From: Candidatus Poribacteria bacterium
GTDB lineage: Bacteria > Poribacteria > WGA-4E > WGA-3G
Assembly (NCBI GenBank): GCA_022824265.1
Contig: JAJEAG010000055.1
Coordinates: 124,001 to 188,000 of the forward strand
Direction: 5' to 3'
DNA: 64,000 nucleotides
Shown: positions 13,229 to 48,400 of the stretch, one piece after another
Position numbering within the stretch: the stretch's first letter is position 1
How the letters are laid out: every line of letters starts with the position of its first letter
Position numbers and translations under genes: made by a program
Notes under the pieces: generated by a model
Databases searched by the model: none
What the model saw: only the letters and a program-made list of their open reading frames with translations
Told to the model about the DNA's origin: nothing

Positions 13229-14167
13229 ATGCGACAGCGCAAATTTGGTAAATCAGGACTGACCGTCTCCGAAATCGGCATGGGAACATGGGAACTCGGA
13301 GGACGCGAATGGGGAGATATAGGTGAAAAGGAAGCCGTGGATCTGCTGCGATACGCTTTTGAAAAAGGGGTTACTTATTACGATACTGCTGACCAATACG
13401 GTGGTGGTCGCGCTGAACGGCTCTTAGGAGAAGCTTTCTCTGTACTCGGTTCAAGGGTGATCATTGCCACAAAACTTGGATATGAACTGGACTCCGATGG
13501 ATGGATTAGCCAAGGAGGTAAAGTCCCCGAATTTAACGCATCACGAGACTATATACGAAAAGCAGTTGAAGGGAGCCTCACCCGAATGAAAAGGGAGGTA
13601 ATAGACATCTATCAATTTCACGCGCCGCCACCCGCAGAAATATGGGATGAAGCATTCGGTGCTATGGAAGAACTCAAATCCGAAGGAAAAATACGCTTTT
13701 ATGGGTTATGCCTTGGAAATGAAACATATGCACTTAAGGCAATAGAAGAAACTGGTATCACATCCCTGATGCTCACATACAATATCCTCAATCAAGACAT
13801 GGCAAAACCTGTGATGGAAACTGCTGCTGAGAAAGGAATTGCCGTTGTAGTCCGTCAACCTTTGTCATCGGGGTTGCTTTCTGGGAAACTCAATGCAGAC
13901 ACTGTATTCGCAGAAAACGATTATCGAAAAACTTGGTCCCGTGAGAAATTCCTTGCAGACTTAGAGAGGGTTGAACAAATAAAATCAGTCGTTAAAGGGA
14001 AAGCGAAAAGCCTTCCACAAGCCGCACTGAAGTTTATTTTAGCAAACCCAGCAGTCTGTAGCGTCACACCTGGAATGATGACACCCGCACAGATTGATGA
14101 CGGTGTTGCAACCTCAGGGACATCTCCGCTTCCATCTGCCATCTTGAAAAAACTCCGTGACAATTAA
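13229..14167 (+). CDS. Aldo/keto reductase
   Basis: The 312-residue protein begins MRQRKFGKSGLTVSEIGMG and has the four catalytic positions of the family. These are Asp in YYDTADQYGGG, Tyr in the same motif, Lys in IIATKLGYE and His in YQFHAPPPAE. It should fold as a TIM barrel and reduce carbonyls with NADPH; the substrate is not predictable. A GGGAG ribosome binding site precedes the ATG. The stop codon is immediately followed by a 122-bp MITE that separates it from the thiamine-binding gene, so the two genes may once have been directly adjacent in an operon. Confidence 0.93.
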   Translation: MRQRKFGKSGLTVSEIGMGTWELGGREWGDIGEKEAVDLLRYAFEKGVTYYDTADQYGGGRAERLLGEAFSVLGSRVIIATKLGYELDSDGWISQGGKVPEFNASRDYIRKAVEGSLTRMKREVIDIYQFHAPPPAEIWDEAFGAMEELKSEGKIRFYGLCLGNETYALKAIEETGITSLMLTYNILNQDMAKPVMETAAEKGIAVVVRQPLSSGLLSGKLNADTVFAENDYRKTWSREKFLADLERVEQIKSVVKGKAKSLPQAALKFILANPAVCSVTPGMMTPAQIDDGVATSGTSPLPSAILKKLRDN

Positions 14168-14172
14168 GGTGA

Positions 14173-14294
14173 CAGGACTTACGCATAAACGGTAGGCGCG
14201 CTTTGTAAGCGCGCAAAATACCCACTATTCTGCTGAAAATTGAACCATTTTGTTCATAATTATTGGATAAATCATGGAAAATGCGTAAGTCCTA
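14173..14294. mobile_element. 122-bp MITE with 13-bp terminal inverted repeats
   Basis: AGGACTTACGCAT (14174-14186) and ATGCGTAAGTCCT (14281-14293) are perfect inverted repeats, a terminal sequence often seen in insertion sequences. No transposase is encoded. Both sides carry AAGGTGA (14166-14172 and 14295-14301), a likely 7-bp target duplication. Inside is GGCGCGC...GCGCGC pairing (14195-14214). The left copy of the target overlaps the aldo/keto reductase stop codon and the right copy acts as the next gene's ribosome binding site. Confidence 0.75.
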
Positions 14295-14306
14295 AAGGTG
14301 AAATAA

Positions 14307-14612
14307 GTGAAAGTAATCGCAGACCTGTGTGTTGTACCGATGGGTGTCGGTGTATCTGTCTCAAAATATGTAACTGCGTGTGAAAAAGTACTTAAAGAAG
14401 CAGGATTAAAGACGAAACTGCACGCCTACGGCACTAACATTGAAGGTGAGTGGGAATCCGTGTTTGATGCAATTAAACGTTGCCATGAAATAGTGCATGA
14501 GATGGGAGCACCACGCATTACAACTACACTAAAGTTCGGCACTCGGATTGATAGATCTCAAACGATGGAAGATAAGGTAAATAGTGTCCAAAATCAATTA
14601 CCTGTAGAATAA
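14307..14612 (+). CDS. MTH1187/YqgV-type thiamine-binding protein
   Basis: This 101-residue protein belongs to the small ferredoxin-fold DUF77 family. Landmarks are IADLCVVPMGVGVSVSKYV at the N-terminus, LKTKLHAYGTNIEGEW in the middle and GAPRITTTLKFGTRID near the end. Structural work on the family found thiamine binding; the cellular role (transport accessory or storage) is uncertain. It starts with GTG, preceded by AAAGGTG at good spacing. That site lies in the target duplication created by the MITE just upstream. No TPP riboswitch is visible. Confidence 0.88.
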   Translation: MKVIADLCVVPMGVGVSVSKYVTACEKVLKEAGLKTKLHAYGTNIEGEWESVFDAIKRCHEIVHEMGAPRITTTLKFGTRIDRSQTMEDKVNSVQNQLPVE

Positions 14613-14737: not shown

Positions 14738-15424
14738 ATGTTTAGAAGATTATTTGTCATAGGATTGGTTTGTCTGATGAGCCTTTCCATTATGACACTT
14801 ACTACTGATGCCCAGACACCTGTTAATGGACCGTATCTTTGGATGATAGCGCATACCGTCCCTAATCAGGGAGGACAAGCGTCCACAGATATTGATTCAC
14901 TTGATGTAGCCAGTGATGGAGAAGTGACTGAAGAGAAAGTTGCCAAAAATGGAGCAAGAGAAGGAGATGTAGTCGGTGATTATGAATGGACAACCGCGAC
15001 TCTTCCAGGTGATGGTAACATAAATGCAATGCTCGTTAATGTTGGTATGGTACAAAACGGTGATTTAAACGATATTACTTCTTATGCGCTAATCGTACTA
15101 AAAGCAAATAAAGCACAAGGGAATGTAGATATGGGTGTTAGTAGTGATGACTCTATCAAAGTCTGGGCTAACGGTGAAGTTGTACATAAAAATGCTGTTA
15201 ATCGCGGACGAGGGGCTGCTGGTGCTTACCAAGATCGGTTTAAGATTAACCTAAAAAAAGGGAATAATCTCTTAATGATTAAGGTGAGTGAACGCGGTGG
15301 CGGATGGGGTATGTTCGTTGGTGTCGCAGGTGATTATGAAGTAGTTGGTATTGATGCTGTTTTGCCCGTTGAACCTGCTGATAAATTAACAACACAATGG
15401 GCAAAAATGAAAAATATTAGATAA
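14738..15424 (+). CDS. Secreted single jelly-roll (sugar-binding-like) protein
   Basis: A signal peptide (about residues 1-25, ending TTDAQ) is followed by one beta-rich domain of about 190 residues. Hallmarks are GVSSDDSIKVWANGEVVHKNAVNRG-like text (split here as SSDDSIKVWANGEVV and HKNAVNRGRGAAG) and KGNNLLMIKVSERGGGWGMF. The pattern is that of the PA14/GH2-type carbohydrate-binding jelly roll, in which a bound polypeptide loop or sugar caps the barrel. GGAGG precedes the ATG. It is a paralogue of the two-domain protein immediately downstream and probably shares a role in binding extracellular glycans; the ligand is unknown. Confidence 0.75.
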   Translation: MFRRLFVIGLVCLMSLSIMTLTTDAQTPVNGPYLWMIAHTVPNQGGQASTDIDSLDVASDGEVTEEKVAKNGAREGDVVGDYEWTTATLPGDGNINAMLVNVGMVQNGDLNDITSYALIVLKANKAQGNVDMGVSSDDSIKVWANGEVVHKNAVNRGRGAAGAYQDRFKINLKKGNNLLMIKVSERGGGWGMFVGVAGDYEVVGIDAVLPVEPADKLTTQWAKMKNIR

Positions 15425-15482
15425 GTGTATTTGATTAAATTGTGGTTTTTTGTTAAACTAATTAAGAAATAATCGTTTATCC

Positions 15483-15500
15483 TTATGATATATATCATAA
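15483..15500. promoter_or_regulatory. Perfect 18-bp palindrome upstream of the two-domain jelly-roll gene
   Basis: TTATGATATATATCATAA is completely self-complementary and lies 71 bp before the ATG at 15571. Its form suits an operator for a dimeric regulator. AT-rich DNA makes chance palindromes less surprising, so confidence is modest. Confidence 0.35.
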
Positions 15501-15570
15501 TTAATATTAATGGATGAATGATAGAATATGAGTTATAGACATATTGATAAAAAACTAATGGAGGTTTTTA

Positions 15571-16815
15571 ATGTATAGGAAATTATGTGTAATAGGATTA
15601 GCATTTTTGATGGTGTTGTCGGTCTTACCGCACATTGCTGATGCTCAAGAGACAATAACCGGTGAATGGCTCTGGATGATCGCTCCAACCGAAGAAAACC
15701 AAGGTGGACAAGCTTCTACCGATATTGATTCCCTTGCAGTGGCAAGTGACGATGCTGTTACTGAAGGAATGGTGGCTGCACTCGGTGCCACAGAAGGTGA
15801 TACAGTCGGAGATTATGAATGGATCCTTGCTGAACTCCCCGCTGATGGTAATATTAACGCTATGCTTGTTGAAGCAGGTGTAACAGAAAATGGCGATATA
15901 AATGATATTACTTCTTATGCACTCATTACACTCGTTTCTGCAGAAGCACAGAGCGATGTGACCTTGGGTGTTAGCAGTGATGATTCAATCAAAGTTTGGC
16001 TCAACGGCGCAGTCGTTCATACCAATGCTGTAAACCGTGGACGTGGTGCTGCTGGTAGCTTCCAAGATACCGTTCAAGTAAATCTTAGAGCAGGGAACAA
16101 CCTGTTAATGATTAAAGTCAGTGAACGTGGCGGCGGATGGGGTATGTTTGCAGGTATTGATGCAGATGTAGAAACCGCATATAGACCCGCTGTCAGACAT
16201 ATCACAGGCGAATGGCTCTGGGTAATCGCTCCAACCGAAGCAAACCAAGGTGGTGCTAATTCTACAGACATTGACTCCCTCGCAGTTGCAAGTAATGATG
16301 AAGTTACCGAAGCAATGGTGGCTGAAAATGGCGCAACCGAAGGCGATAGTGTCGGTGATTACGATTGGGTCCTTGCCGAACTCCCAGCAGATGGTAATAT
16401 TAACACAATGCTTGTTGAAGCAGGGGTGACAGATAACGCTGATTTCAACGACGTTTCATCTTATGCAGTCACAACACTCGTCTCTGATGAAGCGGTGGAT
16501 AATGTAACGCTTGGTGTTAGTAGTGATGACTCCATCAAAGTCTGGCTCAACGGTGAAGTCGTACATACTAACGCTGTAAACCGCGGACGTGGCGGTGCTG
16601 GTTCCTTCCAAGATATCGTCACTGTTGACCTCAAAAAAGGTGACAACTTGTTGATGATCAAAGTTAGTGAACGTGGCGGCGGATGGGGTATGTTTGCAGG
16701 TATTGGTGCCGATGTAGAAACCGCATACAGACCCGCTGAATCTGATGTTGGCACAGCTGTTGAAGCTGCTGGAAAACTCGTCACAACTTGGGGCAAGTTA
16801 AAAGGTGCTAAGTAA
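15571..16815 (+). CDS. Secreted protein with two tandem jelly-roll domains
   Basis: This 414-residue protein has a signal peptide (about residues 1-26, cut near IADAQ) and two near-identical domains (about 27-205 and 210-388). Each starts ITGEWLWxIAPTExNQGG and contains SSDDSIKVWLNGxVVHTN and LLMIKVSERGGGWGMFAG. The repeats are close even at DNA level around the last motif, indicating recent internal duplication of the unit also found in the neighbour at 14738. GGAGG precedes the ATG. A 17-bp terminator palindrome follows. The probable role is extracellular glycan or ligand binding, by analogy with PA14/GH2 jelly rolls. Confidence 0.75.
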   Translation: MYRKLCVIGLAFLMVLSVLPHIADAQETITGEWLWMIAPTEENQGGQASTDIDSLAVASDDAVTEGMVAALGATEGDTVGDYEWILAELPADGNINAMLVEAGVTENGDINDITSYALITLVSAEAQSDVTLGVSSDDSIKVWLNGAVVHTNAVNRGRGAAGSFQDTVQVNLRAGNNLLMIKVSERGGGWGMFAGIDADVETAYRPAVRHITGEWLWVIAPTEANQGGANSTDIDSLAVASNDEVTEAMVAENGATEGDSVGDYDWVLAELPADGNINTMLVEAGVTDNADFNDVSSYAVTTLVSDEAVDNVTLGVSSDDSIKVWLNGEVVHTNAVNRGRGGAGSFQDIVTVDLKKGDNLLMIKVSERGGGWGMFAGIGADVETAYRPAESDVGTAVEAAGKLVTTWGKLKGAK

Positions 16816-16837: not shown

Positions 16838-16871
16838 AATAAAGGACAGTGTTATAACACTGTCCTTTATT
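16838..16871. terminator. Bidirectional terminator palindrome
   Basis: AATAAAGGACAGTGTTA and TAACACTGTCCTTTATT make a perfect 34-bp palindrome between two convergent genes. A-rich and T-rich flanks occur on the respective sides, so it can terminate both transcripts. Confidence 0.75.
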
Positions 16872-16919
16872 ATTTAATTACTTTACAAATAATTTCTTCT
16901 ACAATTATTAGAAATAGCA

Positions 16920-19700
16920 TTATAATGATCGCGATCTTCTTTTAGCAGCCAACAACCTCGTCATTGCCCCTTCAACAGGTTGTGTTATTTCGGAAACTTC
17001 CTCAATTCTAACGTCTTCACGTGATGATACATTTTCCAACTGTGAATAGATTTTTGGATTAGACATCGTGACTGCGCCACCTTTTTTCTCTGTAAGACGA
17101 GTTAGGGTTGGGGAAATAACTGCTTCAGATTCTCTTTGAAATTGTGCGCGCAGTTCAGCCAAATACCCACTTGCAATGCTAAACCGACGCAGAATCATCT
17201 CCAATACAAACAGCGCAACAGCAATAATTAACAACGTATGAGAAAGTGATTTTCTATGCTCAACTGGGACACCTGCAGCGTTAACTATCTGAGATGGTGT
17301 TGGTTCATAAATACCGCCAGTAGATTCAGAAAGCATCTTTAGCAAGTCGTTGTTAACATCAAAATTTGCATACTCAGCAGGATAAGAAAGTGAAAGCGTC
17401 TCTGTCCGTTTTTGCACATCACCATCCTTTTTCGCAGTGACAATATATGAACCGCTATCGTCCATCTTGAATGTTCCAGCATACCGTGTTGCACTTTCCT
17501 GCTGCATCTCAACAGATAGACTGTTACCATTCGGAGCTGCAACTTGTACCGTATAGGTTGTCGGCGAGGTAAGTTGAGTATCAATGACAATATGTCCACT
17601 GCCATTACGAGATGAAACAATTAGATCAAAATCAGCACCTGTTCCTTCAGTCGGCAAAGTCCAATTGACAACTTGTCCCCAAAACTTACCAAAATTTGAC
17701 CAAGAAATCCATTCTTTGCTCCATGCAGGTTTGACATCCGATGTCCATGCCACAGATTTTCCCAAACCGTAATTCCAACCCACAAGAACTGGTTCATCTT
17801 TATGCGATGAGATGAATACTTGTGCTGCCGTTTTCTCTGCCGTTGCAACATATCCGTAAAGGGTAGGCAACGTATCAATACCTTCTAAAATTGGTGTTGT
17901 TTGGTTAGCAATCTCTGGTAGAAACTGTTCCTGAACAATATAATTCTGTGTTTCTCGGACAGCATCCATCAATACCTTTGGTAGTTCTTGAACATTCTTT
18001 ACATGCACCGATCGTCCTATTCCAACGTCTTCAATTTCCTGTAGCAATTTTGTGTCTACATCCCCAATACCAATTACAGTAATACCGATGCGTGCATCAG
18101 TAACTTCTTTTGCTATCTCAATAAATCCAGAACGGTCCTCACCAGATTTTACGTCCGATAATAGAATAATATGTTTCCGTTTCGCATCGGCAGTTTTGAG
18201 TATCTCTGCCGCCATTTCAATCGCCGATCCCATCGCCATCGTCCCACCAGTCGGTCTAAGTCTTCCAACAGCGTCAATCAGTTTATCATGGTCTGAAGTG
18301 AAAGGAGAAATTTCTCGTTTATTAACATCAAAACCCAATACAGCCGCCTGATCTTCATCCTCCATATTTCTAATACCCGCGCGTATAGACTCAATCGCCA
18401 GTTCAATCTTTTTCTGTGGACCAGCGTAATTTGCCATGCTTCCCGATGTATCAATAACAAACACAAGGGCAACAGTTTCTTGTCTTTCACGTGGTGTCAT
18501 ATCAACAGGTAGAATCCGTTCCAATGCAGTATCTGAATAACCTCCAGGACCAAATGCTTGGTCACCACCGATAACCACTAACCCGTGTCCTACGTCACGA
18601 ATATATGCTTCAATCATATCCAACTGTTCAGACGATAGTGTGTCAACGGAAATATTACTAAGGATCATTACATTATGATGTTGTAGCGCAACCAGATTTG
18701 TCGGTATCTCTGTAGCAGGAATCACATTTACGACAAATCCATTTTCCTCAAGCACATCTTTTAGACTATCCGCATGCTCCAAGTCATCTTCCACATATAG
18801 AACGTTCGGTTTGTCCTGAGTTTGCACCACACCATAAGCTTGATTATTTTCAAGGATTTGGTCATTGATATTTAACTTTAACTGATATGTATGGGGAAGG
18901 TCTTCAAAGACCTGCTGTGTAGGTAATGTTAACACATTTTTACCTTCTTCCACGTCGAATTCAAGATCGGTGATTGGAACATCGTTATGATAAAACGTGG
19001 CTGACACAGTTGATATACTGCTGTCTGTTTCAACGATTGCCTGAATTGCAAAGGGCTGTCCTTTTCTAACCTTGTTAGGTAGTTGCAGTTCCTCGACCTG
19101 AATCGTATCTTTCACAGTATTTAATGGAATAGTCAAGATTTCAACGTTACTCGCTGCAAACAGCGGCAAATAATCTACTAAATTACCTGTATTGTGGATT
19201 CCATCGCTAAGCAGCACAATCCGTTGTTGGTAATTGTCCGGTAGTAGTTCAAGTGCTCGCTTGAGGGGAGTGAGAATATCAGTACCATCACCTGCAGCGG
19301 TTGCCTCCAACAAGCTTGAAGTTAATGTCGGTTGATCGCTTACCAACCCCATTTCAATAAAGACTGATGTATCCTGTGCAAAACCCATCACTCCAAATTG
19401 GTCAGTCGGTTTCAATTTTGCTATAGCAGAATTAATCTGATTGATTGCAATTTCCTGTTGAGACGGGGCAATACTATCGGATGTATCAAGTAGAAATGCA
19501 ACCGCAAGACGTTGTTCTCGATGAGTTCGCTGTAGATTTGCCAAGGCAAGAATAACACATAATAGTGCAGCACATCTGAGAAGGAAGGTAGTACGTCTTC
19601 GCCATTTCGCAGCAATGACAGTTGTACGTAACTGAATTAGGTAAAAAATGGGGATTATCGCAAGCAGGAGTAAGAAAAGAGGTGATTGAAAATCAAACAT
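16920..19700 (-). CDS. Membrane protein with two VWA domains and a glutamine-amidotransferase-like domain
   Basis: This is a 926-residue protein. Two N-terminal membrane helices (about 6-25 and 37-56) precede a first VWA domain with MIDAS sequence DTSDS (72-76). A beta-sandwich linker follows (about 200-290), then a class-I glutamine-amidotransferase-like region without the catalytic triad (about 298-400, VLYVEDD, GHGLVVIGG). A second VWA domain has DTSGSM (417-422), and there is a final membrane helix near residue 840. The layout matches BatA/BatB-like and YfbK-type proteins that bind ligands at a metal site in the periplasm, often near MoxR ATPases. No MoxR gene is visible here. The ATG has no clear ribosome binding site. 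Confidence 0.85.
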   Translation of the reverse strand: MFDFQSPLFLLLLAIIPIFYLIQLRTTVIAAKWRRRTTFLLRCAALLCVILALANLQRTHREQRLAVAFLLDTSDSIAPSQQEIAINQINSAIAKLKPTDQFGVMGFAQDTSVFIEMGLVSDQPTLTSSLLEATAAGDGTDILTPLKRALELLPDNYQQRIVLLSDGIHNTGNLVDYLPLFAASNVEILTIPLNTVKDTIQVEELQLPNKVRKGQPFAIQAIVETDSSISTVSATFYHNDVPITDLEFDVEEGKNVLTLPTQQVFEDLPHTYQLKLNINDQILENNQAYGVVQTQDKPNVLYVEDDLEHADSLKDVLEENGFVVNVIPATEIPTNLVALQHHNVMILSNISVDTLSSEQLDMIEAYIRDVGHGLVVIGGDQAFGPGGYSDTALERILPVDMTPRERQETVALVFVIDTSGSMANYAGPQKKIELAIESIRAGIRNMEDEDQAAVLGFDVNKREISPFTSDHDKLIDAVGRLRPTGGTMAMGSAIEMAAEILKTADAKRKHIILLSDVKSGEDRSGFIEIAKEVTDARIGITVIGIGDVDTKLLQEIEDVGIGRSVHVKNVQELPKVLMDAVRETQNYIVQEQFLPEIANQTTPILEGIDTLPTLYGYVATAEKTAAQVFISSHKDEPVLVGWNYGLGKSVAWTSDVKPAWSKEWISWSNFGKFWGQVVNWTLPTEGTGADFDLIVSSRNGSGHIVIDTQLTSPTTYTVQVAAPNGNSLSVEMQQESATRYAGTFKMDDSGSYIVTAKKDGDVQKRTETLSLSYPAEYANFDVNNDLLKMLSESTGGIYEPTPSQIVNAAGVPVEHRKSLSHTLLIIAVALFVLEMILRRFSIASGYLAELRAQFQRESEAVISPTLTRLTEKKGGAVTMSNPKIYSQLENVSSREDVRIEEVSEITQPVEGAMTRLLAAKRRSRSL

Positions 19701-45479: not shown

Positions 45480-48400
45480 CTAACTCAATGTCTCAGCGAG
45501 TTCTGCAACACGGTTTTCAAGTTCAGTCAAAAATTTCTGGTATATCTCTGTATTTTCCGTAATGTCCTCTGGGTTTTGTGAACCTTCAAAAAGAAGCGGT
45601 TCCCCAAAAACGATCTGAATCGGATGTTTTTTTGGTAAGTTTTGCCCTTTAGGAAGAACCTGAAATGTGCCTTTAATATATGTCGGTATAATGGGGACCT
45701 GCTGTCCATAAATCAGAAGGCTGAGAATACCTTGTTTGAATGGCTGCAATTTTCCATCAAGTGAACGTGTGCCTTCTGGAAAAATGAGCAATCCATTGTT
45801 CTGTTCCATTACCTCGTTAGCCATGCGTAAATCCTGTAGAAACTGACCGAAATTTCCGTCGCGTTCAATCGGTAGTGCATTCAAACAATTGTGTGCGAAC
45901 CATCCCTGCAGCCGATTGCCGAACCAGTAATCTCGTGCGGCGAGTGTCCACAGTTGATGTGAATTCTGTCCAAGTGCTGTAATCACTGTAAGCGTATCTA
46001 AATGGCTTGTGTGATTCGGTGTAATAATGAAAGGTTTCCCTTGTGGTATGTTTTCAAGACCAAAACACTCAAAGGAGAAACGAGATTTATATATACTTCG
46101 GATACTGGCACGAAACGCTCGCGCATACCAATACGGTTTTTGGCGTAACTTCACAGATTTTGATGGTGTATCTGTTGTTTGTATAGTATCTGTTTTGTCA
46201 AAAGTCTGCGTTAATTCCACAACATCGTTGACTGTCTGCAAATTCGCAACCATAGCCTCAGGAATAGTATTACCGAGTCGTGATTCGAGGAGCATAAGTA
46301 GGTCAAGTCTCGTGAGTGAATCCAGTCCGAGATCTGTATCCAAACGACTTTCGCCGCCGATCTTATTCGCTGGCATCCGCGCTAATTTGGCAAGGGGTGC
46401 CAGAATCTCTTCAGGAATGTTGTCGGATTGATTGCTTTGTTCTTGATCGGTTTCATCTATAGCTGCAGCTTGCTCGTTTGCTAGATGTTGTTCTAACAGT
46501 GCCTTTACACGTTCCCTATCAATTGCCCCATTTTCTGTTTTTGGTAATGCGTCCTGAAATAAATGCGATTTGTGGAATTGCTGGTAACTTGGGAGTTGTT
46601 TTGCCGTTTGCTGTAGATGATTGTATATATCCGCTTTTGTTCCCTCTCTGTTATCAGTTGGTACAATCACTGCGTGGACACCTGTGTCCGATCCATCTTC
46701 GTAGGGTAGACCAACAACACATATTTCAGAGATAATTGAAGGTGCCTGATAAAGTGCCTCCAATTCCACAGGGTAAATGTTCTTACCAGATGCAGGAACG
46801 ATAATGTCTTTACAATGTCCAGCAATATATAGATAGCCATCATCATCAATATACCCGAGATCCCCCGTGTAAAGCCATCCGTCACGTATAGCATTCTCGG
46901 TTGCACTTTGATTCTGATAATACGCTTTCATATTACTGGGACCTTTTGCTATGATCTCACCGATACCTTCGCTATTGGGATTGTCAATCTTAAATTCAAC
47001 GCCTTCAACAGCAGGACCGACAGATCCACACTTGCTATTTAGATAGGGATTGACACTAAGAACAGGTGCGGTTTCGGTCATGCCATATCCTTGATAAATT
47101 GTCAAACCGAGTTTTTGGAAACCATCATAAATTGCATCGGTAAGGGAAGCACCACCACTAACAAGAACGCGAATGTGTCCTCCCATAACAGCTTGTGCCT
47201 TTTCGGCTAAGGTTTCTCCGGGTGTGTCCTCCCGCGATGCTTGACGTTCAATCGTGGTTTGAAGCATCTGATAAAGTCGCGGCACACTGATAAAAGCTGT
47301 GGTCTTATCCTCACGCATCGTTTTTAGAAGTGTCGTTGGTCGAAACGCATTGACATAAGTTGCGGTGGTCCCACTGTAAAGTGCCATCAGCAGACTACAT
47401 GAAAAACTCAGGGCATGGTAAAGCGGCAGTGCTGACAAAATCCGTTCCTCATCTGTCGGTGGCAATGCCTTTGCAACTGCCTTAACGTTTGAGATAAAAC
47501 CTCCATGTGTTAGCATCGCGCCTTTCGCATCTACTGTAGTCCCCATAGTAAATATAATGGAAGCGACTGTATCGGGTGTAACCTCTACGTCCGGAAAATT
47601 TGTTGGAATGTCTTCATCCGTATTCACTATTTCGTTGAAATGATTGATGTTCTGAATGAGTATATTTTGTTCAGTCAACTGTGCGCTTGAATTGGCTAAA
47701 ACTGCATCGGATGCTAAGATTGCTTTAGCAGTAGTGAACTCAGTAATGGCTAATATTTCTCGTATAGGCGTTTGTGCATCAAGTGGGACAACTGCACAAC
47801 CGATTTGTGATGCGGCAAGGTATGCGATGCACCATTCAGGTTGGTTTTCTGAGACCAATACAATTCTATCGTCTTTTCGTAGACCACTTTTCCACAATTG
47901 GTACGCGATTCGTCGCGAATGTGTGTAGGTTTCAGCATAAGTATAACGTTCCCATTCATTGTCGTTTACCATCTGAAGTGCAATTTTATCAGGAATACGT
48001 TTTGCTTGTATCTCTATTAAATCTACGATTGTTCGTGGTGAGATATTATCAATAGGGTTTGGGGCAGGCGCAGGTAATTCATCAGCTTCATCTTGTGAAG
48101 ATGTTTTATCTTCCTTTGATGAGTCTGAAGTATCATCTTCCAGTTTAAGCACATGTCGCTTGATACCAGGAATGTGTATTTCTTGAAAATACTGCTTCCA
48201 AGATATTAGCGAAACATCGAAATTAAAGTTCTGTTGTTCTTCGGATGAGAGTGCATTGTAAAGTTCCTGCAACTTGTTAGTTTCAAATTCAAAGTTAGTG
48301 CGGGTATAAGGCGCGTAAATCTGAATGTAATGCAAAGCTGCCTTAATGCTGCTCTGTTTTATAAATAGTCTGCGACGTTTTCGTTTCGCTGATTTGAACG

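Follow-up and report, generated by a model that had tools for sequence, protein, structure and literature searches.

A Poribacteria MITE with IS701_2-type ends at a stop-codon/ribosome-binding-site junction, with both neighbouring genes spared

Introduction

Repeat and MITE families of bacteria include Nezha, RUP, NEMIS and ERIC (excerpts of PMC3733652). Some bacterial MITEs are derived from insertion sequences (ISs), for example, MITEAba12 of Acinetobacter, which, in the excerpts of PMC6382973 used here, is short and non-coding and has terminal inverted repeats and target duplications. The Poribacteria MITE analyzed in this work shares these features, and likewise coexists with an IS that carries the same ends. 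It is unlike MITEAba12 in its IS group (IS701_2-type), in its host and in the possession of an inner GTAG palindrome; furthermore, whereas the MITEAba12 copies covered by these excerpts disrupted genes, the Poribacteria copy left both neighbours intact.

The IS701 family, as characterized in excerpts of PMC2266710, consists of elements of 1400-1550 bp with a 4-bp target duplication. The partner IS of the Poribacteria MITE encodes a transposase that resembles those of this family (same excerpts and a table in PMC6352166) and passes the NCBI IS701_2 model, but is instead 1090 bp long and mostly flanked by 5-bp duplications. Because it shows neither the duplication nor the length of IS701, we file it under the NCBI IS701_2 model only. 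GTAG-tagged palindromic repeats (REPs), as presented in excerpts of PMC3733652, resemble the inner hairpin of the MITE, which likewise starts with GTAG at the foot of the palindrome, and a gene for a Y1 REP-associated transposase is likewise present in the same genome; here, however, the palindrome sits within a MITE bounded by terminal inverted repeats.

A search of the open-access literature for bacterial MITEs in combination with translational coupling returned no case, from which we do not claim absence from print. Among the papers listed for Poribacteria with transposons, MITEs or insertion sequences, the titles and the opening parts of the abstracts contain nothing on this MITE family. 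Here we describe a locus where a MITE with IS701_2-type ends very probably moved in trans into the junction of a stop codon and a ribosome binding site, with a 7-bp target duplication that spared both adjacent genes.

Results

A MITE between two tightly packed genes

The window, that is, the whole stretch of DNA analyzed here, comprises 64,000 nucleotides of a Candidatus Poribacteria genome (denoted G000 below). The upstream gene of the pair encodes an aldo/keto reductase of 312 aa (ORF at 13229..14167, plus strand; PF00248, 3.8e-51) and ends with a TAA stop codon at 14165-14167. The downstream gene (ORF at 14307..14612, plus strand) starts with GTG and encodes a 101-aa thiamine-binding protein of the MTH1187 family (PF01910, 7.7e-35; TIGR00106, 1.3e-36); an in-frame TAA lies directly 5' of the GTG at 14307, and therefore, this gene has no possible start farther upstream. 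Beyond the pair, at 14738-16815, two adjacent ORFs of 228 and 414 aa contain, as judged by eye, three copies of one domain (LWMIA...GQASTDIDSL and variants); a Pfam search at E 0.001 yielded nothing for the first of these ORFs.

The region between the two genes contains a 122-bp element (14173..14294, not assigned to a strand), across which no ORF of at least 60 aa is listed and which we recognize as a MITE from its terminal arms and its copies in the genome. The left terminal inverted repeat (14173..14186, plus strand) reads C followed by AGGACTTACGCAT, and the right one (14281..14294), on the minus strand, T followed by AGGACTTACGCAT. The perfect 13-nt inverted arms thus occupy 14174-14186 and 14281-14293, with one extra unpaired base at each end (C on the left, A on the right). 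Within the element lies a GTAG-tagged palindrome (14192..14214, plus strand), with the GTAG at 14192-14195 followed by 8-bp arms at 14196-14203 and 14207-14214 that are separated by a 3-nt spacer.

The element is flanked by AAGGTGA on both sides. The left copy of this target-site duplication (14166..14172, plus strand) starts inside the stop codon and shares its second and third bases. The right copy (14295..14301, plus strand), the presumed ribosome binding site of the thiamine-binding gene, ends 5 nt before the GTG. The initial annotation had reported the 122-bp element, its 13-bp repeats and the placement of both AAGGTGA copies, all of which hold; its statement that the element splits two genes is correct only in that the MITE lies between them, as it interrupts neither.

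The combination of inverted arms and direct repeats is not fortuitous. The whole window was scanned for perfect inverted arms of at least 12 nt that span 80-300 bp and have direct repeats of at least 6 nt within 2 nt of the arms. This pattern occurs at the MITE locus only and in none of 50 control windows that were shuffled by permuting the letters in 200-bp blocks. A search of the window for further ends, allowing up to 2 mismatches, yielded 3 matches, including the two of the element itself, versus 1.15 expected; a match with 1 mismatch at 45823-45835 was dropped because it is within chance and has no second end nearby.

The empty site in relatives

The reductase protein was used to locate 50 loci, 47 of them in Poribacteria, with the best 97% identical; overlapping loci from another search were left out of the 47-locus set. 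By a motif-based criterion, the thiamine-binding gene adjoins the reductase gene in 34 of the 47 Poribacteria loci, one of which (L124) carries the MITE, whereas 33 contain no insert and have an intergenic gap of -4 to 16 nt. The other 13 loci did not score as adjacent, but the motif failed to detect at least two pairs (L144 and L146) that appear adjacent on visual inspection. Inspection by eye of the 33 element-free loci reveals a purine-rich run (TAAGG, TAGGG, TGAGG etc.) that starts within the stop codon in 29; in the remaining four, the genes overlap by 4 nt. One element-free locus, L132, carries the uninterrupted AAGGTGA junction, AATTAAGGTGAACGCATG. After subtraction of the MITE and one copy of the duplication, the gap in the window would be 10 nt, within the 9-11 nt range that 28 of the 33 relatives show.

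The uninterrupted arrangement that the initial annotation proposed to look for is therefore well represented. The empty sites, together with the same duplication in the sister genome (see below), support its view that the element entered the ribosome binding site, which was preserved by target duplication. Only the wording that the element donates a ribosome binding site needs correction: the insertion duplicated a site that already belonged to the host, and the right copy is the preserved original. In this arrangement, the two genes are likely to be co-transcribed, AAGGTGA presumably serves as the ribosome binding site, and expression of the second gene would be little altered by the MITE. 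The start codon of the thiamine-binding gene is ATG in the 33 element-free loci, GTG in the window and TTG in the sister genome, and translation may therefore have changed.

At locus L124 (contig C92) of the sister genome G009, the nearest relative, the same MITE occupies the same site between two AAGGTGA copies, and the loop of its GTAG hairpin is interrupted by an additional sequence of about 115 bp. The sister reductase gene shows a one-base frame difference before the junction and ends two codons later, at a TGA inside the left AAGGTGA copy, so that the duplication supplies the entire stop codon. Between the window and the sister, the thiamine-binding gene has a dN of 0.013 and a dS of 0.20 (16 nucleotide differences), and the corresponding values for the reductase gene are 0.014 and 0.20 (49 differences). 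Both flanking genes are under purifying selection between the two MITE carriers (dN/dS of about 0.07, from few differences).

Copies of the MITE and their target duplications

BLAST detected at least 44 matches to the MITE in its own genome (40 of 81 candidates scored), of which 17 are nearly full-length (at least 115 of the 122 positions), 11 are confined to the inner hairpin region and the rest are partial. Exact AGGACTTACGCA sites number 31 in this genome, compared to 2 for the reversed control pattern; the same terminal repeats, which the initial annotation had suggested searching for elsewhere, are thus abundant. With a simple ORF finder, none of the 18 own-genome copies checked was found within an ORF of at least 80 aa, with one overlapping the end of an ORF by one base; among copies with an ORF on both sides, 15 of 17 lie between ORFs of the same orientation. 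Matches of any kind are present in 29 of 59 related genomes; those listed beyond the genus of the window are short fragments, chiefly from the inner hairpin. A separate site, G000:C74:200741-200777, consists of two facing MITE ends 13 bp apart, a minimal end-pair nearly devoid of interior.

To count target duplications, we started from 62 MITE loci, of which 13 lacked a recognizable end pair and 9 with more than 3 end mismatches were left out; merging 4 orthologous copies left 36. An exact duplication of at least 5 bp flanks 19 of these 36 non-orthologous copies and is missing in the other 17, whereas random re-pairing of the flanks gives a mean of 0.86 and a maximum of 5 copies with such a duplication. 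The 122-bp element is a genuine MITE.

A partner insertion sequence and the identity of the mover

On contig C42 of the same genome, a pair of AGGACTTACGCA sites bounds a 1090-bp insertion sequence with MITE-like ends that encodes an intact 352-aa DDE transposase ORF. This protein passes the NCBI IS701_2 model NF049921 (357.6 bits, cut-off 250) and falls below the cut-off of the main IS701 model NF033540 (88.2 bits, cut-off 150). Full copies of the transposase gene were also found in G010 (about 20) and G003 (1). The IS copies that could be read with their ends, 19 in G010 and 1 in G003, along with the one on C42, are all 1090 bp long (21 of 21). The match between the right MITE end and the IS ends extends over up to 16 bp for the G010 copies, but over only 12-14 bp for the own-genome IS. 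The initial annotation had also suggested looking for a transposase that uses such ends; the IS on C42 provides a candidate, its intact transposase gene lying between termini shared with the MITE. The mover was presumably a transposase of the IS701_2 family.

The duplication lengths bear on whether this particular transposase was involved. The 21 IS copies have duplications of 5 bp (13 copies) or 6 bp (5 copies) or none (3 copies, including the only full copy in the MITE's own genome). Among MITE duplications of at least 5 bp, 11 of 13 in the own and sister genomes measure 6-7 bp, compared to 0 of 6 in other members of the genus (all six are 5 bp) and 5 of 18 IS copies with a duplication (all five 6 bp). 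This excess corresponds to Fisher p values of 0.001 against other genus members and 0.003 against the IS, for tests picked after the data were seen and on small numbers. Given that the 7-bp duplication of the MITE is longer than those of the IS, and that the match to the ends of the own-genome IS is short, the mover may be an unfound sibling transposase. A different enzyme, now lost or unsampled, that recognized the same ends and produced 6-7-bp duplications is a possible, albeit not the favoured, source of mobility. In the same direction, the sister genome has no match to the C42 IS transposase and contains two weak matches to the family model, both below the cut-off. The numbers are small, however, and AT-rich flanks lengthen apparent duplications; moreover, the other IS701_2-like gene found in the MITE's own genome, also below the cut-off, is not associated with such ends. 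That gene, on G000:C15, adjoins another MITE copy; it was discarded as a candidate mover because the sole good end pair in the 3.8 kb read belongs to that MITE copy.

Predicted RNA structure of the junction

An RNA copy of the MITE is predicted to form a single long hairpin (-44.7 kcal/mol, z -6.0). The strength of this fold, the position between co-oriented genes and the retention of the element in two genomes would suit a regulator or a fixed, non-mobile RNA structure between the cistrons, such as a processing hairpin, flanked by coincidental AAGGTGA repeats. Such an element should not be missing at the same site in 33 of 47 relatives while having at least 44 matches in the genome, nor share its ends with an IS or show target duplications far above chance, and a search of the whole window against Rfam produced no family at curated thresholds. 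We consider this explanation very improbable and retain that of a mobile MITE.

The fold could nevertheless matter for translation. The MITE ends form a 13-bp stem that lies 6 nt downstream of the stop codon and 1 nt upstream of AAGGTGA, so that the folded MITE might serve as a bridge, the end-to-end stem bringing the stop codon next to the ribosome binding site and translational coupling being kept. The right AAGGTGA copy is mostly unpaired in the predicted 149-nt fold (0.71-0.99 per base), in agreement with such a bridge. This is prediction only, however, and in a longer context, the predicted unpaired fraction drops to 0.45-1.0 for the site and to 0.09-0.32 for the start codon; when the flanks are joined without the element, the start region is predicted to fold as it does with the MITE. 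In addition, the GTG and TTG start codons would fit lowered rather than kept translation. The bridge model appears unlikely.

A second repeat nested in the GTAG hairpin

Among the matches listed in the MITE's own genome, six other exact copies of the 23-bp GTAG palindrome were identified, all inside copies of a second palindromic repeat. This repeat has the ends ATGAAGATTAA and TTAATCTTCAT, is about 100-119 bp long, carries a GTAG hairpin in many copies, and is represented by 47 BLAST matches, some partial, in this genome (copies L265-L294). In the sister genome, it occupies approximately positions 16855-16968 of G009:C92 (L124), in the loop of the hairpin of the same MITE. The second repeat is frequently located in hairpin loops. 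From 30 input loci, 7 of which had no end pair, we obtained 23 complete copies; 11 of these are flanked by a perfect stem of at least 6 bp, compared to 0.9% of 5000 random positions, and re-pairing of the flanks among copies gives a mean of 3.5 and a maximum of 9 copies with a stem. At least three copies (L274, L288 and L293) seem, by eye, to join halves of two different hairpins.

The own genome contains one gene of the Y1_Tnp (REP-associated) type, which is flanked by palindromes unlike that of the MITE. This gene (G000:C37:49704-49955, L204) has palindromes with a GCGCAATTCATTGCGC core on both sides.

A speculative extension is that the repeats are self-nesting: the terminal hairpin of the MITE, by keeping stop codon and ribosome binding site close to each other, would render insertion between coupled genes nearly neutral, and the GTAG loop would offer a landing pad for a second repeat, as in the sister genome, which itself bears a further GTAG hairpin. 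We give this idea little weight.

Discussion

The reading that we favour begins with a non-autonomous MITE, with the ends of an IS701_2-type IS of Poribacteria, that would have been mobilized in trans. Its target would have been the stop-codon/ribosome-binding-site junction of the tightly packed reductase/thiamine-binding gene pair, where a transposase, inferred to be of the IS701_2 type, would attach the MITE ends to the two target strands, cleaved with a seven-base stagger. Repair of the staggered cut would then duplicate seven host bases, and as a result, each gene would retain the copy it needs. The left AAGGTGA regenerates the stop codon, and the right one keeps the presumed ribosome binding site as far from the start codon as before; both genes therefore survived. 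Insertions with another outcome would probably have been lost.

Insertion of a MITE is an ordinary event; what is instructive here is the position, and only the family and the host are new. The locus provides a clean, bracketed case that includes the empty site, the filled site, a later nested insertion and a possible autonomous partner. Two further features should be taken as leads rather than results: the 6-7-bp duplications found in this lineage and the insertion of the nested repeat into a hairpin loop. Because the duplicated target included both the stop codon and the ribosome binding site, the MITE entered a translation signal at no visible cost, which shows how tightly packed gene pairs can be loosened by repeats.
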